In this document: positions 11,130 through 63,789 of the stretch, piece after piece
Numbering within the stretch: the first letter of the stretch is position 1
How the letters are laid out: every line of letters starts with the position of its first letter
NCBI RefSeq assembly: GCF_006351965.1
Contig: NZ_CP040932.1
Coordinates: 3,658,001 to 3,722,000, forward strand
Reading direction: 5' to 3'
Length of the DNA stretch: 64,000 bases
DNA from: Oceanicola sp. D3
GTDB lineage: Bacteria; Pseudomonadota; Alphaproteobacteria; Rhodobacterales; Rhodobacteraceae
The notes under the pieces: model-generated
The model's database searches: none
Seen by the model: only the letters and a program-made list of their open reading frames with translations
What the model was told of the DNA's origin: nothing
Made by a program: the position numbers and the translations under genes

Positions 11130-12992
11130 TTAGCCCGCAACCTGTTCGCGCAGCACCGAGGCGGTGAGCGAGATCATCAGGTAGATCCCGGCAAAGATCA
11201 GCAGCGCGAGGGCGGTGTTTTCGAAGGCACGCGGATAGGTGGCCTCGTCGGGCGCAATCGGCGCAACGCCGAGCGAAAGATAACGCACCTGCCGATTGGC
11301 CTCGATCCGGGCAGTCTCAAGCTGGGCGGCGGCTTGCTGGAGCAGCAACTGCCGGGTGGCCAGATCGGCCTCGGCAATGCGCAGCTCACCGGTGATGCGG
11401 GCCAGTGACGCGCCGGTATCGGTCGTCTGGGTCATCGAGGAGCGCAACTCTGCAACAAGCGCCTTGAGCCGTGAGATATCGCCTTCCAGCGCCCGGACGC
11501 GGGCCTGATTGGGGCGGGTGTTGGAGAGTTGCTGCTGAAGGTCGAGCTCCTTCTGGCGCAGCTCCAGCTCAAACTGGGTGATCTGGCTCATCAGCGAGCC
11601 GGATTCGCTCACCGGGTCGAGCACGCCAAGCTGCTCTTGCAGTTCGAGCACCCGTTTTTGCGCGGCAAGCACCTTCGCCTCGGCCTCGTCGAAACTTTCA
11701 CGCGCGCCCTTCATCTGGTCTTCCCGCAGGCGCTGGGTGAGCTGGTCAATCTGCTCTTCGGCGTATCCCAGAAGCGCCTCAGAGAACTCCTGGCTCTTTT
11801 CGGGGCTGGCGGCGATGACCTCCATCTTGAGGATGCCCTCGGACGGGTCGTAGCCGATTTTCACGTTGCGCTGATACAGCCGATAGGCGGCCTCGTCGGT
11901 TGCGCCGCTTTCCAGCCTCTGGATCGGGTCGATGAACGGCTGCTCGAAGTGGATCTTGAAGCCATGCTCGGCGTCCAGCCGCTTCATCGCGGCGCGGGAG
12001 GAAAGGTAGCTTTGCACCGTCGTGCTGTCTTGCTGGGTGGCAAGAGTGGTGCCCTGGAACAGCCCGCCAAGGCCTGCAGCGGCGCCGGATTCGGCCTGTT
12101 GAATCAGGAACTCGGACTTGGTGGCATAGAGCGGCGTGGCCAGCACGTAGTAATACCAGCCCGCGATGAAGGCAGGCAGCAGCACAAAGAAAGCCAGCCG
12201 GGTGAAGAGCAGCAAGGATTTGCGGCGGCGGCGGCGGGTGATGTCTTGCTGGATGCGGCCAATCTCGTTGGCGCGCTGCTCGGCAGTGTTGAGCGCGGGG
12301 CCGGGCACCGGCGCGTCCTGCGGCACGGCCACGGAGGTGCCGGGGCCCTGCTGGCGTGCGACCTGCGGCAGATTGGGGGTGGCCCCACCGCCGTTGCCGT
12401 TGCCCTGGCCTTGGGCCTTGGCGTTGTTCTGCACCAGCTCCAGCATGGCGGAGCGCTGAAACGGATCAATGCCCCGGTCGCGCAGCTGTTTGACCGCGTC
12501 GAAATCGGAGGTCGGGGCCAGCCCGTGCTTTTGCGCCACCCGGCGGGCCATGCGCAACTGGCGCCCGGTCAGCCCCTCCTTGCGGATGTCGGCAATGGTC
12601 TGTTCGCTCTGGGCGGATTGGGCAGAGGCAACCTCGCCGCTCTGGGCAGGCGTCTGGCCCGCCTTGCCCTTTTTGGCGGCGGCAGCGGTTGGCATCATGT
12701 CGGGGCCAAAGCCATCGTCATGCATCTCGGGCGAGGCGGCCTCCATCATGGCCACGTCTTCATCCTTCGCCTTGCCGGGCTCGCGCAGGGTGACATCTTC
12801 GGCCTTGGCACCCTTCGCCTGCTCCTGCTGCGCCTGAGGCGCGGGCGCGGTAGCGGCCACGGGCTTTTCCTCCACCGGTGGCGGGGCAACCTTGCGCGCC
12901 GTCGCGCCCTCAGTGGCCGCCATGGCCTGGCCGGGAGTCAACGGGCCGTCACGCCGGATGCGGAATTTGCTAGCCTTGGGCTTGGTAGTCAT
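11130..12992 (-). CDS. kpsE: Capsule/polysaccharide export inner-membrane protein, KpsE/CtrB-type, with long N-terminal extension
   Basis: A 620-residue polysaccharide co-polymerase-like protein. The periplasmic domain lies between one TM at about residues 259-281 (LLLFTRLAFFVLLPAFIAGW) and a C-terminal TM at about 590-613 (ALALLIFAGIYLMISL). It includes a coiled-coil stretch rich in Q and E (ELELRQKELDLQQQLSNTRP). Ahead of TM1 is a cytoplasmic extension of some 255 residues, low-complexity and acidic, with a conserved-looking block GLTGRQLRMARRVAQKHGLA. The start MTTKPKASKF overlaps the end of the ATPase gene by 23 bp. It should bridge the ABC exporter and an outer-membrane channel. Confidence 0.82.
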   Translation of the reverse strand: MTTKPKASKFRIRRDGPLTPGQAMAATEGATARKVAPPPVEEKPVAATAPAPQAQQEQAKGAKAEDVTLREPGKAKDEDVAMMEAASPEMHDDGFGPDMMPTAAAAKKGKAGQTPAQSGEVASAQSAQSEQTIADIRKEGLTGRQLRMARRVAQKHGLAPTSDFDAVKQLRDRGIDPFQRSAMLELVQNNAKAQGQGNGNGGGATPNLPQVARQQGPGTSVAVPQDAPVPGPALNTAEQRANEIGRIQQDITRRRRRKSLLLFTRLAFFVLLPAFIAGWYYYVLATPLYATKSEFLIQQAESGAAAGLGGLFQGTTLATQQDSTTVQSYLSSRAAMKRLDAEHGFKIHFEQPFIDPIQRLESGATDEAAYRLYQRNVKIGYDPSEGILKMEVIAASPEKSQEFSEALLGYAEEQIDQLTQRLREDQMKGARESFDEAEAKVLAAQKRVLELQEQLGVLDPVSESGSLMSQITQFELELRQKELDLQQQLSNTRPNQARVRALEGDISRLKALVAELRSSMTQTTDTGASLARITGELRIAEADLATRQLLLQQAAAQLETARIEANRQVRYLSLGVAPIAPDEATYPRAFENTALALLIFAGIYLMISLTASVLREQVAG

Positions 12993-13629
12993 AGAGCCTC
13001 TTTGCTTCTTCCAGCGTTTCAAACATGTGGAACTGCCCATCCCGCAGCACCGCAGCCGAGCGGCAGAACTTTTCAAGCGTGCCGGGCTGGTGGGAGACGA
13101 TGATAACAGTGGTATCCTTCAGCCGCTCCCGCAGGATCGACCCCGCACGGCGGTTAAACTCAACATCCGTTGTCGAGGGCATGCCCTCGTCGATCAGATA
13201 CATATCAAAATCGAGCGCCAGCATCAGCGCAAAGCAAAAGCGCGCGCGCATCCCCTGGCTGTAGGTGCCGACCGGCATGTCAAAATATTCTTCGATCCCG
13301 CAGAGCCAGCGCCCGAAGGCCTCCACATAATCGGGATCAAGCCCGTAGAGCCGGGCGATATAGCGGGCGTTCTCGGTGCCGGTGTGCCGGTTGACGACGC
13401 CCCCCATGAACCCGAGCGGAAAGGAGATGCGGCAGCCCCGGCGAATCTCGCCCTCATCGGGTTTTTCCAGCCCCGCCATCATGTTGATCAGCGTGGTCTT
13501 GCCGGTGCCGTTGGGGGCGAGGATGCCAAGCGAATTGCCCAATTCGACACGAAAAGACACGCGATCAAGGATCACCTTGCGCTGCTTCCCGGTCCAGAAG
13601 GACTTGCTGACGTTGGAGAATTCCAGCAT
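12970..13629 (-). CDS. kpsT: Polysaccharide ABC exporter ATP-binding protein, KpsT-type
   Basis: The 219-residue ATPase has Walker A GILAPNGTGKTT at about 35-46, a degenerate signature SQGMRARFCFAL, Walker B MYLIDEGMP and H-loop SHQPGT. The LAPNGTGKTT and SQGMRAR variants are typical of KpsT/CtrD capsule ATPases. It powers export of a lipid-linked polysaccharide across the inner membrane. Its end overlaps kpsE. The membrane permease (KpsM) expected beside KpsT is not in the window on either side, so it must be encoded elsewhere. Confidence 0.88.
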   Translation of the reverse strand: MLEFSNVSKSFWTGKQRKVILDRVSFRVELGNSLGILAPNGTGKTTLINMMAGLEKPDEGEIRRGCRISFPLGFMGGVVNRHTGTENARYIARLYGLDPDYVEAFGRWLCGIEEYFDMPVGTYSQGMRARFCFALMLALDFDMYLIDEGMPSTTDVEFNRRAGSILRERLKDTTVIIVSHQPGTLEKFCRSAAVLRDGQFHMFETLEEAKRLYDYQAQG

Positions 13630-27222: not shown

Positions 27223-27981
27223 TCAGGCAAACTGCTCCCGAATGAGCCGCTCCTCCAGCCCGTGGCCGGGATCAAACAATATCCGGTGAGTGATGCTCTC
27301 GTCAGAGCGCACGATCACCGTCACCACATTTTCCACCGCCCGGCTGTCGGCCTCGGCCCGCACAGGGCGCTTTTGGGGCTGAAGCACGTCAAAGCGCACC
27401 TCGGCGGCCATCGGCAGCAGGGCGCCGCGCCAGCGGCGCGGGCGGAAAGCGGCAATCGGCGTCAGCGCCAGCACCTCGGCCCCAATCGGCAGGATCGGCC
27501 CGTGTGCCGAGTAGTTGTAGGCCGTGCTCCCCGCTGGCGTGCACAGCAGCGCCCCGTCGCACACCAACTCTTCCATCCGCTCCCGGCCATCCACCTGAAT
27601 GCGCAGCTTTGCCGCCTGCGGCCCCTGCCGCAGCAGGCTCACCTCGTTGATCGCCAGCGCCTCCTCGGTGCCTCCATCGGCGGTAAAGGCCCGCATCCGC
27701 AGCGGGTGCAGCACCTCTTCCTCCGCCGCCTCAAGCCGCTCCTTCAGGCTCGGCTCGCTGTATTCGTTCATCAAAAAGCCGATGGTCCCGCAGTTCATCC
27801 CGTAAACCGGCGTATCCAGATGCTGGGTGTCACGCAGGGTTTGCAGCATATGCCCGTCGCCCCCCAGCGCCACAATCACCTCGGCCTCCTCGGGCGGCAC
27901 ATCCCCATGCTGCCCGGCCAGATGGCGGCGCGCCTCCTCGGCAATCTGGGTCTCGGCGGCCATGAAGGCGATCTTGTCCAA
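27223..27981 (-). CDS. nadK: NAD kinase
   Basis: A 252-residue enzyme phosphorylating NAD+ to NADP+. The GGDG motif is seen in [17 protein letters not shown] at about residue 40, the NE/D block in [14 protein letters not shown], and the glycine-rich [15 protein letters not shown] loop. The start is taken as TTG at 27981 ([12 protein letters not shown]): GGAGGA lies 6 nt before it, whereas the later ATG at 27963 has no such site and would remove the first strand. An open frame continues far upstream opposite glyA but has no family content. Divergent from glyA. Confidence 0.93.
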
Positions 27982-28146
27982 GGGGCATCCTCCGGGTTTC
28001 CCCAAAGACTTCGCCCGCGCCGATCCGAAACACAAGACCGCCGATATGCCGCCATTCCGCGCAAAAGTGGCGCTTTGTCGCTTTTGCCCCGCCCTGCCAT
28101 GAGGTAAACCCCGCCCAACCGTTCCCCAGCCAAAGAGGCCCGCCCA

Positions 28147-29436
28147 ATGAACGCGCCCCACCGTGACAGCGGATTTTTCACCGAAGAGCTTGCCAGCCGC
28201 GATCCCGAGATCGCCAAGGCCATCACCCAGGAGCTCGGCCGCCAGCGCGACGAGATCGAGCTGATCGCCTCCGAGAATATCGTCTCCAAGGCGGTGCTCG
28301 AAGCCCAGGGCTCGGTGCTCACCAACAAATATGCCGAGGGCTACCCGGGCAAGCGCTACTACGGCGGCTGCCAGTACGTCGACATTGCCGAAACGCTGGC
28401 GATCGACCGCGCCAAGGAGCTCTTCGGCTGCGACTTCGCCAACGTCCAGCCCAACTCCGGCTCCCAGATGAACCAGGCCGTGTTCCTCGCCCTGCTCCAG
28501 CCGGGCGACACCTTCATGGGCCTCGACCTCAACAGCGGCGGCCACCTCACCCACGGCTCCCCCGTCAACATGTCGGGCAAGTGGTTCAACGTGGTCAGCT
28601 ACGGCGTGCGCCAGCAAGACCAGCTGCTGGATATGGAAGACATCCGCGCCAAGGCGCTGGAGCATAAGCCCAAGCTCATAGTCGCTGGTGGCACCGCCTA
28701 TTCCCGCGTCTGGGATTGGGCCGCCTTCCGCGAGATCGCCGATGAAGTCGGTGCCTACCTGATGGTCGACATGGCCCATATCGCCGGGCTCGTCGCCGGG
28801 GGCGTCCACCCCTCGCCGATCCCGCATGCCCATGTCTGCACCACCACCACCCACAAAAGCCTGCGCGGCCCCCGTGGCGGCATGATCCTCACCAACGACG
28901 CCGACATCGCCAAAAAGGTGAACTCGGCGGTCTTCCCCGGCCTTCAGGGCGGCCCGCTGATGCATGTCATCGCCGCCAAGGCCGTGGCCTTCGGTGAGGC
29001 CCTGCGCCCCGAGTTCAAGAACTACGCCGCACAAGTGGTGAAGAACGCGCAAGCGATGGCCGACCAGCTCCAGAAGGGCGGGATCGACATCGTGTCGGGC
29101 GGCACCGACAACCACCTCTGCCTCGCAGACCTGCGCCCCAAGGGCGTCACCGGCAAGGCCGCCGAGGCCGCCCTTGGCCGCGCCCATATCACCACCAACA
29201 AGAATGGCGTGCCGTTCGACCCGGAGAAGCCCTTCGTCACCTCCGGCATCCGCCTCGGCGCGCCCGCCGGCACCACCCGCGGCTTTGGTGAGCCCGAATT
29301 CCGCCAGATCGCCGATTGGATCGTCGCCGTGGTCGACGGTCTCGCCGCGAATGGCGAAGACGGCAACGGTGAGGTCGAGGAAAAGGTGAAGGCCGAGGTC
29401 ACCGCCCTCTGCGCCCGCTTCCCGCTCTACGAGTGA
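28147..29436 (+). CDS. glyA: Serine hydroxymethyltransferase
   Basis: A 429-residue PLP enzyme interconverting serine and glycine with tetrahydrofolate, the main source of one-carbon units. The sequence begins [20 protein letters not shown] and shows [36 protein letters not shown] and the PLP-lysine motif [18 protein letters not shown]. Length and landmarks are standard throughout. Monocistronic, divergent from nadK with 165 bp between starts, and followed by a palindromic repeat and a strong terminator. It supplies the folate pathway to which folK contributes at the other end of the window. Confidence 0.98.
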
Positions 29437-29448
29437 GCCGCGCGCGGC

Positions 29449-29495
29449 GTCATCCTCGGGCCTGACCCGGTCATCCTCGGGCCTGACCCGAGGAT
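29449..29495 (+). repeat. Tandem copies of the alphaproteobacterial CCTCGGG/CCCGAGG intergenic palindrome
   Basis: A 21-nt unit (starts GTCATCCTCGGG) occurs twice head to tail at 29449 and 29470. The second copy completes a 9-bp perfect hairpin ATCCTCGGG-cctga-CCCGAGGAT (29473-29495). This palindrome resembles short interspersed elements seen in many alphaproteobacterial genomes (from general knowledge). It lies between glyA and its terminator. Confidence 0.75.
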
Positions 29496-29511
29496 CTCTC
29501 ACATCCCAAAA

Positions 29512-56090: not shown

Positions 56091-58592
<2,502 letters not shown>

Positions 58593-61500
58593 TCAGGGGC
58601 TTTCCGCTGGCGCTGTATCTGCCTGATTTTCCTTGGCGATTTCGGCGATCCGGTCGCGGGTGACGGCAAGGTATTCTGCCTGCTCCGCAGAGAGCCAGCC
58701 CCGCGCCTCCATCCGCGCCAAAACCTCCAGCGCGCGCGCCATATTCTCAGCCGGCTCCACCCCCAAATCCGCGAGGTGATAGTAGCTGACATAGAGCCCC
58801 CAAGTGACGCCGCGATCAGCCTTCAGCGTCTCCAACAGCTTCAGCCGCATGTCCCGCGCCGCCTCATGTTCGGCAATCGCCTCCGCCGTGCGCCCCTGCA
58901 CGGCCAGCGCAGTGCCAAGCTGCTCATGGCTCACCGAGAGCAGCCAGCCGCGGCGCGTGTCTTGCGAATGGTTCACCATCAACTTCTGGCGCAGTTCCAG
59001 CGCGATCCGGTGCCATGCCTCGGCGTTTTCGGCGCTGCCATAGCCAAGCTCCAGCTGCCCCAGCGACTCCGCAGCCTCGGCGGCGTAGATCCTCGGTTCC
59101 GCCCGCTCCATCCGCGCAGCGGCTGAGGTCAGCCAATCATAGGCATCACGCATGGTGCCGTCGGCTTCCACCACCTCACCCAACGCAACCTCCGTCTGCC
59201 CGAGCCGCAGCATCGCAAGCCCGGCCTGCAGGGCGGTTTCCGGGTCTTCCGCGTCCTGCATCAGCAGCCAGATGCTGGTCAGCACGATGTAGGAGCGGGT
59301 CAGGTGCAACTGCTTCAGCTCCGCCTCGCTCGTGGCGCCAAGTTGTTGGGACTCGATTTGCAGGTTGATCTCAAGGTTCAGATCCCGCCAACGACGGTTT
59401 TCACCCTTCATGTTCATCAGGATCCTGGCAAAGCCTCGCGCTTCGATCAGCCCCTCCAGTGCCGCCTCCCGGTCTCCCGCCCGCGCGGCGCGGTGGGCGA
59501 TATACCGTTCCAGAACGATGCCGTCATAAATCCAGCCCGCGTGGGTCCGGTTGGCCTCGCGCAGTGCTTCCATCTGCCCACGGGCCCGCTCCAGCGCAGC
59601 CTTCGCCTCGGCATCCCGCCCTAGAAACGAAAGCGCCCGCCCCAGCGCAAATTCCGCCTCGAACACCGCATGCCCGATGGCCGTGTCCCCCGGCGCCGCC
59701 GCCAGCATCGGGCGCAACAGGTCCAGCGCCTCCCGCGCCTTCGCTTCGGCCTCTTCGCGCTCCATCATCCGGGTCAGCGCCATGGATTGCCCGATCAGCG
59801 TGCCACTCAAAGCGTGGCGCAGCGCCGCGCGTTGCGGGTCTTGCTCGAACATCTTGACCAAGAACTCTTCGGCCTTCGCAAAATACTGAAGCGCTGGCTC
59901 AACATCGCCGGTCTCCAGCAGAGCGCGCCCCACCTTCATCGCCGTGCGCCCGATCGCGAGGCCATCGCGTTTGCCCGATTCACGCGCCGTCGCGCCATAA
60001 ATCTCCAGCCCCTCCCAGTAGCTGTCAAAGGCCTTCTCCGCCTCGCCCATGCCAATCTGGGCATCGCCGCGCCGCTCATTGGCCTCCGCAAGCCTCAGCT
60101 GCACCGCCGCATCCTCCGGGCGGGCCTCGGCGTGGGGCCGCATCCGAGCGGCGGCATCCTCAAAGTCCTTCAGCGCGGCCTCGTGGTCTCCCAGCAAGAT
60201 CCCGAGGTCGCCGATTAGCATCTCGACCTCCCAGATATCCAGATCGTGCTGCAGGGCCGCCCCCTGCCCCTCGCCCTTGCGCAGCACCCTCACAGCCTGG
60301 ACCGCCGCCTCGCGCACAGCCTCGGTATCGCCCACCACCTTCTGCGCTTTGGCAATGCCCACAAAGGCAAGGTAAAGGCGGCGGCGCATGGCAACGTCAT
60401 CCTGCGCCTGCAAAAACTCCGCGCCCGCCAGATCGCGCATGCCTTGATAGGCCCCCAACGCGGCGGCATGGTCGCCCAGTAGGGTGAAAATCTCCGCCGC
60501 CTCCTGAAACAGCTCGATCCGTGCAATCCGCGCCTCCTCGGGCGGGCTCAGCGCGGCTAGCTCCTCGTGTATCACACCCGCCTGCTCCAGCACCTCCAGC
60601 GCCAGCGCATAATCCAGCCGGGTGCGGGCCACACCGGCCTTGAGCCGCAGCGTCTCTGCCTCAGACATCCGCCGCGCCACGAGGTTTTCCATCAGCGCAT
60701 CGCCCGAGGCCCTGTCGAGCGCAACGGCCTCGTCGAGCGCGCCCAATGCGCCGGTAAAATCGCCCAGTTCCAGCCGCATCTCGGCCGCCCGGCGCATCTC
60801 GGCCACCTCGCCATCCTGCGCCGAAAGCTGCCGCAACTGCGCCCGCGTCGCCACGAAGGCCGCCGCCGCCTCGGCCAGCTTCGCGCTGCGTTCACTTGGC
60901 GACGCATCAGAAAGATCATTGGCCAGAAGCGCCCCGAAGATCGGCGCCAGCGGCACTTCGGCATCGCTGGCAACCCGCTCCACCTCGGCGCGCACATCCG
61001 GCGTCAGCTCGGCCATCGCCAGCAGCAGCCGCTCCCGCTCGGGCAGCGCGTCATCCTGACCGGCAGCAAAGAACAGCCGCGGCAGGGCGCTTTCCACGTA
61101 GGGCAGCTGCGCCCCGCGCGTGCGGTCATAAACCTCCTGCTGCACCAGCGTCAGCACCGAGCGCACCTCCAGCCCCGGCGCTGCAAGATGCCGCGCCAGC
61201 GCAGCGGCGAAGGGCGAGTTTTCGCCCTCACCATCCAGCGCCACAGCCCCCGGCGCGGTGGAAAAGCCGATCAGCGTCCCCTCGCCACGCGGCACGGCGG
61301 CAAATCCCGGCGTCTCCCCTGCCTGCAAAGCAATCGCCGCGCGCCCCTCATCCGCGCCCTCAAATGGGTCCACCCGGCACGCGTCCACCAACAGCACCGC
61401 GACCGGCGCAATCTTCGCCACCCGCTCGCGGATCTCGGCAAGGCTCAGCGAACTTTCCATCAGGCTCTCGATCGACGACCCGTCGCCATCCACCGGCAGC

Positions 61501-61811
61501 AGCCGGTTGTCGCCCCCCACCTCGAAGCCATGCCCAGCGAAGTAGACCACCGCCACATCGGCGCCCTCACCGTCATACTCAAGGTCTTCCAGCGCCCGCT
61601 CCATCCGCCTCTTGTCGCGGTCGCGCTCATAGACCACGTCAAAGCCCAGGGCCTCCAACGCCGCGCCCACTGTATCGGCATCGTTCGCCGCGTTTTTCAG
61701 CGGGCGCATGTCCTCGTAGCGATCATTGCCGATCACCAGCGCCACCCGCTTTTCGGCGAGCGCGGGAAGGGCAGTGACGCACAGAAGGAAGATCACGAAC
61801 AAGCGGCGCAT
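58593..61811 (-). CDS. Secreted caspase-like (peptidase C14) protease with long TPR region
   Basis: A 1072-residue exported protein: signal MRRLFVIFLLCVTALPALA, then a caspase-fold domain to about residue 260 (EKRVALVIGNDRYEDM, dyad His94 in VVYFAGHGFEVGGDN and Cys145 in VLLVDACRVDPFEG), then some 750 residues of helical tetratricopeptide-type repeats (for example LGDFTGALGALDEAVALDRA, GDVEPALQYFAKAEEFLVKM, AEAIAEHEAARDMRLKLLET). The architecture is of bacterial metacaspase/CHAT-like regulators. Catalytic dyad intact, so probably active, likely periplasmic because of the signal. Between gyrB (84 bp) and the LysE gene (48 bp), all on the minus strand; function not known. Confidence 0.88.
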   Translation of the reverse strand: MRRLFVIFLLCVTALPALAEKRVALVIGNDRYEDMRPLKNAANDADTVGAALEALGFDVVYERDRDKRRMERALEDLEYDGEGADVAVVYFAGHGFEVGGDNRLLPVDGDGSSIESLMESSLSLAEIRERVAKIAPVAVLLVDACRVDPFEGADEGRAAIALQAGETPGFAAVPRGEGTLIGFSTAPGAVALDGEGENSPFAAALARHLAAPGLEVRSVLTLVQQEVYDRTRGAQLPYVESALPRLFFAAGQDDALPERERLLLAMAELTPDVRAEVERVASDAEVPLAPIFGALLANDLSDASPSERSAKLAEAAAAFVATRAQLRQLSAQDGEVAEMRRAAEMRLELGDFTGALGALDEAVALDRASGDALMENLVARRMSEAETLRLKAGVARTRLDYALALEVLEQAGVIHEELAALSPPEEARIARIELFQEAAEIFTLLGDHAAALGAYQGMRDLAGAEFLQAQDDVAMRRRLYLAFVGIAKAQKVVGDTEAVREAAVQAVRVLRKGEGQGAALQHDLDIWEVEMLIGDLGILLGDHEAALKDFEDAAARMRPHAEARPEDAAVQLRLAEANERRGDAQIGMGEAEKAFDSYWEGLEIYGATARESGKRDGLAIGRTAMKVGRALLETGDVEPALQYFAKAEEFLVKMFEQDPQRAALRHALSGTLIGQSMALTRMMEREEAEAKAREALDLLRPMLAAAPGDTAIGHAVFEAEFALGRALSFLGRDAEAKAALERARGQMEALREANRTHAGWIYDGIVLERYIAHRAARAGDREAALEGLIEARGFARILMNMKGENRRWRDLNLEINLQIESQQLGATSEAELKQLHLTRSYIVLTSIWLLMQDAEDPETALQAGLAMLRLGQTEVALGEVVEADGTMRDAYDWLTSAAARMERAEPRIYAAEAAESLGQLELGYGSAENAEAWHRIALELRQKLMVNHSQDTRRGWLLSVSHEQLGTALAVQGRTAEAIAEHEAARDMRLKLLETLKADRGVTWGLYVSYYHLADLGVEPAENMARALEVLARMEARGWLSAEQAEYLAVTRDRIAEIAKENQADTAPAESP

Positions 61812-61859: not shown

Positions 61860-62480
61860 TCAGGTAAAGGGGATCACACAGCCCACGAGCGTCAACAGGC
61901 AGCCCGCCACGATATTCGTCCGCCGGAGCGCCTCCGGTGAGGCCAGCAGGCGGCGGGCGCGGTCGATCATCAGGGCAAAACCGAGGTTGCCCAAAAGCGG
62001 CACCACCGCCGAAAGCGCGGTGATTGCGGCGATGTCGGCCCATGTCACGGCGGTGAGGTCAAAAAAGCCCGGCAACACACCGAGGTAAAACAGAACCGCC
62101 TTCGGGTTGCCCAGGATCACCGCCATCCCGGCCGCGAACCCGGCCCACATGCCGGGCCGTGTCAGCCGGCTGTCAGCGGCAATCGACTTGCCCGCATGGC
62201 GCAAAATGAGCCCACCCATGACAAGGAAGATCGCCGCCGCGACCCATTTCAGCACCGCCATGAAGCCCGCGAAAACGGTCGTGACCCAAGTGATCCCGTA
62301 GATCGCAAGGAAGGGCCAAAGCACATCGCCCACCGTGACCCCCAGCGCCAGCGGCCATGCAGCGTTGAAGCCCCCGCTCAGCGCCCGCGCTGTCAGCGCC
62401 ATCCAAACCGGGCCGGGCGTGAGAAACAGGATCAGCAGCGCAAAGGCATAGAGGCCCAGATCGGCGGGGGTGATTGTCAT
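61860..62480 (-). CDS. LysE family amino-acid exporter
   Basis: A 206-residue protein with about six TM segments, beginning DLGYLFALL-type DLGLYAFALLILFLTPGPVW (the TPGP kink), then the loop GFAAGMAVILGNPKAVLFYL (GNPK motif) and the C-terminal RRTNIVAGCLLTLVGC. Homologues export amino acids and related solutes; unrelated in detail to the LysE at 6538. Its start overlaps the DUF1697 remnant stop, so it belongs to the recF transcript. Start ATG at 62480. Confidence 0.9.
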   Translation of the reverse strand: MTITPADLGLYAFALLILFLTPGPVWMALTARALSGGFNAAWPLALGVTVGDVLWPFLAIYGITWVTTVFAGFMAVLKWVAAAIFLVMGGLILRHAGKSIAADSRLTRPGMWAGFAAGMAVILGNPKAVLFYLGVLPGFFDLTAVTWADIAAITALSAVVPLLGNLGFALMIDRARRLLASPEALRRTNIVAGCLLTLVGCVIPFT

Positions 62481-62674
62481 GGCGCGTCCAGCATCTCGGC
62501 CAGCTTGGCCACGGTTGAAAAATTGCGGGCCGTCATGGGGCTGCCCAGCAACCGCTCTGCCTTGGCCGGGATTTTCGATGTGCTCAAGCCCTCCGGCAGC
62601 GTGCGCAGTTCGGCCATCGCCAGCTTGCTATACCCGCCCACATTGATGCCGCGCAGAAGCAAAACCGATGTCAC
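62477..62674 (-). pseudogene. DUF1697 gene with a large in-frame internal deletion
   Basis: Only 65 residues remain. The first 30 (MTSVLLLRGINVGGYSKLAM and AELRTL) match the N-terminus of DUF1697 proteins, which normally run on to about 175 residues; the last 30 (KAERLLGSPMTARNFSTVAK, LAEML) match the C-terminus. About 110 central residues are missing and the join, near EGLSTSKIP, keeps frame. GTG at 62674 overlaps the recF stop and the end overlaps the LysE start, so the fragment is still in the operon and may be translated for coupling. Judged from memory of the family layout. Confidence 0.75.
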
Positions 62675-63789
62675 CCCGCCACCTCGCGCAGCGCGGAAAG
62701 CCCGGCCTCTTCGGTCACCTCAAAGTGCTGCGCCTTACCGCCCAACTCCTCAAAAAGCTCTGCGCCCGTGCCGGTCATGAAGGCCTGCGCCCCGAGCGCC
62801 TCGATCTCGGCATAAAGCGCGGCGCGGCGCGAGGCATCGAGATGCGCCGCCACCTCATCGAGCAGCAACAGCGGCGGTGCGCCGAAATCCTCGGCCAAGG
62901 CCCGGGCGTTCGCCAGAATGAGCGAGAGGAGCAGCGCCTTTTGCTCGCCGGTGGAGCAAAGCCGCGCCGGGGTGTCCTTGGCAATATAGGTGGCCCCAAG
63001 GTCGGCGCGATGCGGGCCGGTCAGTGTGCGCGTTGCCGCAAGGTCGCGTGCGCGGCCCTCTGCAAGCGCCGCCGTCAACGCCTCGGCGTCACCGGGCGTG
63101 TCACAGGCCGGTTCGGGGTGGCTCAGCATCAGCCCCGCCGCCGGAAAGGCACTGCTCGCTTCATCCTGCGCCGCCGCCAGCCGCATCAACGCGTCTTCGC
63201 GGTGGCGATGAATGCGCGCGCCCTCCTCGCCCATCCGCTGCTCTAACGCGGCGTACCAATGGGCATCGCGCACCATGTCCTTCAAGAGCCGGTTGCGCTC
63301 GCGCATCGCCTTTTCATAGGCCAGCACCGCCTCGCCATGGGCAGGCTCAAAGCTGAGCACGATCCTGTCCAGAAACCGCCGGCGCCCCTCGGCCCCCTCG
63401 ATCCAGAGGCGATCCATCGAGGGCACCAGCCACACAACCCGCGCCAGCCGCCCCAACGCCACCTGCGCCGCCGCCTTGCCGTCGATCTTTACGCTGCGCC
63501 CGCTGGCCCCCGCCTCGGCCCATGTTTCCAACTCATGAAAATGCCCCAGCGAGGCCAGCTCCGCCTTCACCTTCCAGCCCAGCGCCTCGGGCGCGCGGGC
63601 CATCTCTTCGGCACTCGCCCGCCTCAGCCCACGCCCGGGCGAGAGCAGCGAAACTGCCTCCAGCACATTGGTCTTGCCCGCCCCATTCGGCCCCCAAAGC
63701 GCAACCGGGCGGCCATCCAAAGCCAGTTCCGCCCGACGATGCGAGCGGAAGTGCGAGAGGGTCAGGGATGTGAGGGCAAGGCGGGGCAT
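62671..63789 (-). CDS. recF: DNA replication and repair protein RecF
   Basis: A 372-residue SMC-like ATPase that loads RecA at gaps. Walker A is ALWGPNGAGKTNVLEAVSLL, the signature ARLCSTGEQKALLLSLILAN, Walker B PLLLLDEVAAHLDASRRAAL (DE) and the D-loop follows. The N-terminus MPRLALTSLTLSHFRSHRRA is standard. Its start at 63789 faces a terminator; the gene order upstream (dnaN in many genomes) is beyond the window. Stop overlaps the DUF1697 remnant. Confidence 0.97.
   Translation of the reverse strand: MPRLALTSLTLSHFRSHRRAELALDGRPVALWGPNGAGKTNVLEAVSLLSPGRGLRRASAEEMARAPEALGWKVKAELASLGHFHELETWAEAGASGRSVKIDGKAAAQVALGRLARVVWLVPSMDRLWIEGAEGRRRFLDRIVLSFEPAHGEAVLAYEKAMRERNRLLKDMVRDAHWYAALEQRMGEEGARIHRHREDALMRLAAAQDEASSAFPAAGLMLSHPEPACDTPGDAEALTAALAEGRARDLAATRTLTGPHRADLGATYIAKDTPARLCSTGEQKALLLSLILANARALAEDFGAPPLLLLDEVAAHLDASRRAALYAEIEALGAQAFMTGTGAELFEELGGKAQHFEVTEEAGLSALREVAG

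Follow-up and report, generated by a model that had tools for sequence, protein, structure and literature searches.

A gyrB-linked caspase-TPR protein of Alphaproteobacteria with a constant, predicted exported protease and an apparently exchanged repeat arm

Known caspase-TPR systems and the gene of Oceanicola sp. D3

To our knowledge, bacterial caspases are widespread, few of them have known jobs, and the best-studied ones act in the cytoplasm. Here we describe a gene for a caspase with tetratricopeptide repeats (TPRs) in Oceanicola sp. D3, located in a 64,000-nt stretch of its genome (contig NZ_CP040932.1, positions 3,658,001 to 3,722,000 of the forward strand), the whole of which we call the window. 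The closest described systems include orthocaspases with TPRs. A 2012 survey of 671 prokaryotic sequences reported TPR_1 in 7.0% and TPR_2 in 5.8% and already listed caspase-TPR fusions and probable signal peptides (PMC3501461); our initial annotation of the window, which called such fusions poorly described, was therefore too strong, although their function is indeed little known. Like the Oceanicola protein, these orthocaspases have a p20 domain with a His-Cys dyad, C-terminal TPRs and, in some cases, an N-terminal signal or transmembrane helix, and they are common in Alphaproteobacteria, as here (PMC3501461, PMC6426788), where TPRs were also found with a catalytically dead FS dyad (PMC6426788). 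They differ in that the accessible text of both papers describes neither a pattern of constant protease and exchanged arm nor linkage to gyrB (PMC3501461, PMC6426788), and the survey's main text, as far as accessible, mentions neither gyrase nor gyrB nor topoisomerase (PMC3501461). Literature searches, with supplementary tables, subscription papers and preprints outside their scope, turned up, among the papers listed, neither caspase-gyrB linkage nor arm exchange in a bacterial caspase, so that arm exchange and a gyrB-linked presence/absence site, the most unusual features and ones that the initial annotation had missed, may be new, whereas caspase-TPR fusions are known.

Other known systems resemble parts of the protein. 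The MALT1 paracaspase has the closest solved caspase domain by sequence and the best by fold, but it is eukaryotic, carries Ig and death domains, has no TPR arm and is not exported. STAND/NLR sensors combine an N-terminal effector with a variable C-terminal repeat sensor (PMC10907252), and the caspase-TPR protein may work like one of them without being a member, since unlike them it matches no Pfam NTPase family at E values up to 0.1 and is predicted to be exported. Caulobacter LypABC likewise brings alphaproteobacterial protease and TPR parts into one lysis pathway, but as a three-gene system with trypsin-like peptidase and ATPase domains and, in the accessible text, no caspase-TPR fusion (PMC13236601). 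A polymorphic toxin was considered and rejected, as it would be expected to have a constant trafficking part and a variable toxin tip, whereas in this protein variation falls on the TPR part and the enzyme stays constant.

Our preferred reading, to which we assign a probability of roughly 0.45, is that an exchangeable recognition arm would gate an exported caspase with Arg/Lys specificity, making the protein a single-protein envelope receptor-protease. The gene and its parts are as follows.

58593..61811, minus strand: caspase-TPR gene, an open reading frame (ORF) from ATG to stop of 1072 aa (Pfam and AlphaFold2)
61755..61811, minus strand: predicted Sec-type signal peptide, residues 1–19, AxA then E20-K21 (sequence; 79/80 relatives)
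61056..61754, minus strand: caspase domain, residues 20–252 (PF00656, 2e-39; structural match to MALT1)
61530..61532, minus strand: codon CAT of catalytic His94 (family alignment)
61377..61379, minus strand: codon TGC of catalytic Cys145, the sole Cys of the mature protein (family alignment)
61341..61343, minus strand: codon of Arg157, candidate self-cleavage site (invariant in 54/54, in a loop with low predicted local distance difference test score, pLDDT)
60612..61055, minus strand: linker, residues 253–400 (tree conflict in 263–400; break between Mesorhizobium tandem copies near residue 300)
58614..60611, minus strand: predicted TPR superhelical arm, residues 401–1066, fast-changing and apparently exchanged (identity profile, model, trees)

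The coding strand is the minus strand, and stops interrupt translation of the plus strand. The ORF is more than chance, because full-length orthologues occur in 5/6 other same-genus genomes and named genomes yielded 212 relatives in a profile search, of which we kept the best 80; the nearest named record is from Vannielia litorea (71%), and the host genus is close to Vannielia. Pfam Peptidase_C14 (PF00656) matches residues 21–247 (E = 2e-39, 136.1 bits versus a curated cut-off of 21.4). An AlphaFold2 model (54-sequence alignment, mean pLDDT 87.8, predicted template modeling score 0.66) has an alpha/beta caspase fold up to about residue 250 and exclusively helices past it, in residues 334–1066, so that the predicted structure contains both the caspase fold and the TPR solenoid for which the initial annotation had proposed to look. 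Structural comparison of the model, which barely tested the parts outside residues 19–252 and ~380–850, placed residues 19–252 on MALT1 (3uo8_C; VIA-align Z 25.4, root-mean-square deviation 3.1, 213 aligned, 24% identity) and matched residues ~380–850 to the TPR folds of LGN, Rap and MalT (Z 23–27). Pfam TPR_12 scored above its cut-off (39.7 bits versus 30.1) and other TPR models under theirs, which, with the helical superhelix of the model, supports the TPRs first suggested from the sequence.

The dyad residues are at the positions first claimed for them. His94 and Cys145 align with GHG and DMCR of MALT1 (phmmer, 1.7e-06) and, like Asp44 and Asp143, are kept in 86/86 aligned family rows and in 13/13 other alphaproteobacterial caspases (paralogues); the two aspartates are presumably the counterparts of the MALT1 acidic-pocket residues. 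C14 proteases other than caspases favor Arg or Lys at P1 (PMC5756287), and by analogy the caspase-TPR protein should cut after these residues. Arg157 is invariant in 54/54 aligned proteins and lies in a loop after Cys145 (residues 153–161, pLDDT <50); since the orthocaspase MaOC1 requires self-processing for activity (PMC5756287), we propose Arg157 as a candidate self-cleavage site.

Several features point to export. The N-terminus, MRRLFVIFLLCVTALPALA followed by EK, reads by eye as the Sec-type signal peptide of the initial annotation (charge, hydrophobic core, AxA site), and a scripted rule, a hydrophobic core and AxA ahead of an acidic residue, picked out 79/80 relatives, the single exception beginning at a contig end. 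The mature protein has one Cys in 46 relatives, two in 33 and three in 1 (n = 80), and noncatalytic Cys amount to 0.47 per 1000 residues; the sole control, 53 linked gyrB proteins, has 2.85 per 1000 when all Cys are counted. This scarcity fits an active thiol in an oxidizing compartment and, together with the conserved signal peptide, strengthens the prediction that the protein is exported from the cytoplasm. It is very unlikely that the signal peptide is uncleaved or unused and the protein cytosolic or tethered to the inner membrane: a single N-terminal hydrophobic helix would fit a membrane anchor too, but the near-universal AxA signal sequence and the scarcity of cysteine argue otherwise.

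Variation and exchange of the arm

The protease is nearly constant between relatives while the arm is not. Residues 20–250 are 89–92% identical to five same-genus orthologues, and neighboring genes 74–95%, whereas identity falls to 48–85% in residues 331–500, 31–59% in 501–700, 20–47% in 701–900 and 38–62% in 901–1040. Mean distances in the Vannielia-type set are 0.56 for the arm, 0.07 for the protease and 0.05 for gyrB, with a milder excess in the Mesorhizobium set (0.35, 0.15 and 0.09, respectively).

Trees of six same-genus genomes suggest that arms have been exchanged (L and G numbers are our handles for loci and genomes). gyrB, recF and the AlkZ-like gene each give ((L031,L034),(L033,(L032,(L035,L036)))), and the LysE tree departs from this topology solely in the placement of L032 and L033. 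Conversely, trees of the linker (residues 263–400), the arm (401–960) and the C-terminal end give L034+L035+L036 and reject L032+L035+L036 (p = 2.9e-4, 7e-5 and 1.3e-5, respectively). The group L034+L035+L036 is in turn rejected by gyrB plus the AlkZ-like gene (p = 4.8e-9 in the approximately unbiased test), recF plus LysE (0.011) and all four flanks (1.6e-8), and by gyrB (0.006) and the AlkZ-like gene (2e-7) singly. These p values are optimistic because the groups were picked after viewing the distances; the log-likelihood differences are large (89 for all flanks, 397 for the arm).

Mesorhizobium offers an independent case. We took 36 loci that have gyrB and bear either of two C-terminal signatures (14 of one, 22 of the other), excluding those that bear neither. 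Arm class requires a single change on the tree of the arm but 7 changes on that of gyrB and 6 on that of the protease; its clean split on the arm tree (100/100) is partly expected, as the signature was defined there. Arm class as a clade is rejected by the gyrB tree (p = 3e-5) and the protease tree (9e-4). Three close pairs have 95% identity in gyrB, mostly ~90% in the protease part and 65–81% per block in the arm. L116 and L134 are 95% identical in gyrB (92–98% by block), 92% in the 600 nt upstream, 83–91% over most of the first 350 codons (one 50-codon block, 78%) and 68–81% in the arm.

Tandem copies within one genome can also carry unlike arms. In L229 their protease DNA is 98.2% identical versus 48.3% for the arms, with 92–100% per 25-codon block over codons 1–300 and 47% in the next block. 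At fourfold sites of the protease the two copies differ at 8/147, versus 41/141 when the same copy is compared with L230 (Fisher’s exact test, 8e-8). The protease parts of the tandem copies share 92.5% identity in L163 and 90.4% in L230, close to the level across genomes, so that recent homogenization is evident in one of the three genomes, that of L229. The upstream copy in L229, L230 and L163 carries an arm of a third type, similar in its C-terminal end to proteins of Mesorhizobium sp. Z1-4 and Aquibium, with just 34% arm identity. Because the arm tree conflicts with the flanking genes and tandem copies bear unlike arms, we infer that arms are exchanged between relatives, in the same-genus set and independently in Mesorhizobium.

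The site beside gyrB

The stable neighbor of the caspase-TPR gene is gyrB, not recF. The lead came from automated neighbor clustering, which was polluted by shadow ORFs, and was then confirmed directly. Across 86 loci (80 relatives and 6 same-genus), gyrB lies at most 500 bp downstream on the same strand in 51, on the opposite strand in 1, at 3.4 kb in 1, and is absent from the flank examined in 33; L112 and L113 apparently repeat L032 and L036, and some of the 33 flanks are short. The linked set includes Vannielia-type genomes, Pseudooceanicola, Mesorhizobium, Aquibium and other Rhizobiales. At L129 (Nitratireductor arenosus), gyrB adjoins the gene on the opposite strand, in convergent orientation.

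In the window the minus-strand order is recF, LysE-type gene, caspase-TPR gene and gyrB.

62671..63789, minus strand: recF
61860..62480, minus strand: LysE-type transporter gene, 48 bp upstream of the caspase gene
58537..58565, minus strand: promoter-like site of gyrB, GTGACA, 17 nt, TATAAA, just past the caspase stop
56091..58508, minus strand: gyrB, 805 aa counted from ATG

The initial placement of the gene between gyrB and recF is thus correct, with the LysE-type gene in the same interval too, but its emphasis on an insertion that splits recF and gyrB was misplaced, as the gene tracks gyrB, including in Rhizobiales loci without recF in the flank examined. Of the seven same-genus genomes, counting that of the window, six have the caspase gene between recF and gyrB, which are 4.0–4.4 kb apart; the seventh, G001 (87% complete), has a gap of 423 bp, no full-length orthologue and an apparent remnant of the LysE gene. 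Of 30 other family genomes, 28 have recF and gyrB on one contig, 26 of them on the same strand and 31–2595 bp apart, with a distance of 79.9 kb in G016 and opposite strands in G020.

Presence is patchy at this site. In the Mesorhizobium group 31/81 genomes gave a match (E up to 1e-100), each with a copy directly upstream of gyrB (136–197 bp ahead of the gyrB match), a result favored by the use of a gyrB-linked gene as query. Of the 45 matches, 31 are these copies and 6 lie just upstream of them, five as tandem copies and one as a fragment of a split gene; the other 8 are elsewhere. Among the carriers, G780 has an internal TAG and G810 a split gene. We read the region upstream of gyrB in 18 of the 50 match-less genomes and aligned each to its best-matching carrier. 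All 18 flanks align to both sides of the carriers’ gene, with <160 bp unaligned between them in 14, which thus have nearly clean empty sites, and 0.5–1.5 kb of other sequence in L205, L206, L207 and L219; at L222 the carrier has an extra 2.3 kb that L222 lacks. L213 and L216 still align with the end of the caspase ORF, over its last ~65 and ~110 nt, respectively, and L213 with roughly the first 50 nt as well; we read these remnants as deletion scars and thus as a sign that gene loss occurs. The other 16 alignments stop short of the ORF or no more than a few bases from its end. Wider draws, which counted the Oceanicola genome itself, gave 10/394 family genomes and 2/385 class genomes with an E value of at most 1e-60, both low estimates because only two candidates per genome were scored. 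In four other family genomes with a relative and a gyrB match (G028, G394, G277 and G070), the two share a contig in 0/4.

Linkage to gyrB seems to be old. In a tree of 59 rows, including 13 paralogues and leaving out 40/86 family rows (near copies, repeated records and short rows), the family is split from the paralogues with support 100/98, gyrB-linked rows fall on both sides of the first fork, and the linkage label needs 5 changes; early origin followed by losses would be the simplest reading, with moderate support (87/77) for the larger side of the fork. Protease-domain and gyrB distances correlate closely (r = 0.97 across 49 loci and 0.935 across 42 rhizobial loci), which suggests that the gene is mostly inherited together with gyrB. 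Two further tandem caspase genes with signal-like starts lie elsewhere in the Oceanicola genome (L039:5585-12409; C1 near 1555600-1562400), with DUF1036 before them and a peptidoglycan M23 peptidase/SLT gene after; a match to the M23 gene was found in 7/13 paralogue loci searched, which cover all 6 other same-genus genomes.

A functional link to gyrase or supercoiling could be suspected from adjacency to gyrB in two orders, but we judge it extremely unlikely. The protein is predicted to be exported, many gyrB loci have no caspase gene and 33/86 family loci have no gyrB in the flank examined. Furthermore, a promoter-like site belonging to gyrB itself precedes the gyrB ATG, past the stop of the caspase gene, in 7/7 genomes compared, including caspase-less G001 (a strict generic consensus scan did not report the site at 58537-58565), so that co-transcription is not required to explain the linkage. 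The true start of gyrB is most likely the ATG at 58508 (805 aa), as the GTG of the longest, 824-aa ORF (56091-58565) sits on the conserved promoter-like -35 hexamer; automatic annotation may place the start too far upstream. Most likely, the position beside gyrB would reflect inherited linkage and a recombination anchor, with no shared gyrase function.

Elsewhere in the window, a 759-aa ORF (27223-29502, minus strand) has above-cut-off NAD kinase matches confined to residues 538–686 and no Pfam match at E 0.001 in its first 530 residues, and a 648-aa ORF (11130-13076, minus strand) matches no Pfam family at E 0.001 and has a third-position G+C like that of coding sequence.

A possible receptor-protease of the envelope

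A constant enzyme beside an exchanged repeat arm is what would be expected of an effector joined to a sensor. Under our preferred reading, the protein would be exported by Sec and its signal peptide cleaved, as its sequence and conservation suggest, and the caspase-type domain, with a His/Cys dyad and acidic pocket placed by alignment, would cut after Arg or Lys like C14 relatives. The TPR superhelix would bind a partner or peptide, and binding would join protease domains or free the active site, probably with cleavage at the Arg157 loop. Envelope proteins might then be proteolyzed, as a response or in cell death, which is the least certain step; periplasmic proteolysis and a tie to signaling or stress, as the initial annotation suggested, may occur. 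The recognized ligand would vary between strains, and arms, presumably under selection for ligand recognition, would be swapped through homologous recombination, with the constant protease half on one side and the conserved gyrB region on the other, as well as between tandem copies; gyrB may supply the homologous DNA at the 3′ side. More tentatively, we picture a one-gene periplasmic receptor in which one constant caspase bears different TPR arms in different strains, each for its own ligand (a phage, kin or envelope signal), and strains switch arms through recombination anchored on the protease half and gyrB, sometimes with two arms kept in tandem.

Several results weigh against an arm exchanged for recognition. 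Singly, recF (p = 0.055) and LysE (0.097) do not reject L034+L035+L036, the protease domain alone is undecided between the six-genome groupings (p = 0.123), and the closest same-genus pair, L035/L036, has nearly identical arms (3% different). Positive selection on the arm found no support: among six pairs tried, the ratio of nonsynonymous to synonymous change (dN/dS) is 0.06–0.25 for the arm in 4 (2 saturated), above the protease domain (0.01–0.07 in 5) but far below 1. A focus of change on the concave face, the ligand groove, is disfavored, as six concave and six convex helices, assigned by hand, vary alike (0.45 versus 0.46; permutation p = 0.82), and the signs of a greater age of the arm are weak and mixed, its synonymous divergence being only weakly above that of neighboring genes (Fisher p = 0.39, 0.012, 0.043 and 0.12). 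No common partner except gyrB was recognized among 10 neighboring proteins of 7 loci, and PADLOC, run on the window protein only, gave a weak match to a generic caspase model (26.6 bits, 8e-07).

The even spread of change over the arm helices and the low arm dN/dS would suit the main alternative, an exported housekeeping protease (envelope quality control or signaling) whose arm drifts under weak constraint and whose exchange is ordinary recombination; so would the tracking of gyrB distances over the 49 loci, by the arm (r = 0.94) as by the protease domain (0.97). We consider this possible rather than likely. Neighboring genes agree mutually and disagree with the arm, in Mesorhizobium the arm falls into discrete classes whose recurrence does not match gyrB or the protease, tandem copies in one genome combine 98% protease with 48% arm identity, and presence in 31/81 Mesorhizobium-group genomes fits ill with housekeeping.

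A receptor for phage defense or cell suicide, in which the arm senses a periplasmic phage component and the caspase kills the cell, seems doubtful. Its appeal lies in the resemblance of a constant effector and changing C-terminal TPR to STAND/NLR sensors (PMC10907252), in presence/absence at a fixed site and in the tandem copies. A TPR-CHAT gene near one unlinked copy is a mere hint: at L117:9991-14087 (Mesorhizobium sp. B2-3-4), where the flank of the caspase-TPR gene has no gyrB, the genes that follow it encode an FAD-binding protein and a TPR-CHAT protein, presumably another caspase-clan protease. However, the protein is predicted to be exported rather than cytosolic, its PADLOC match is weak, and no known defense gene was recognized among the neighbors scanned, defense islands not having been systematically sought.

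If the preferred reading of an exported caspase gated by an exchangeable arm holds, natural variation itself would point to the role of the noncatalytic part, since the enzyme stays constant and the arm is replaced, and the persistence of the caspase gene beside gyrB would have an explanation without gyrase biology.

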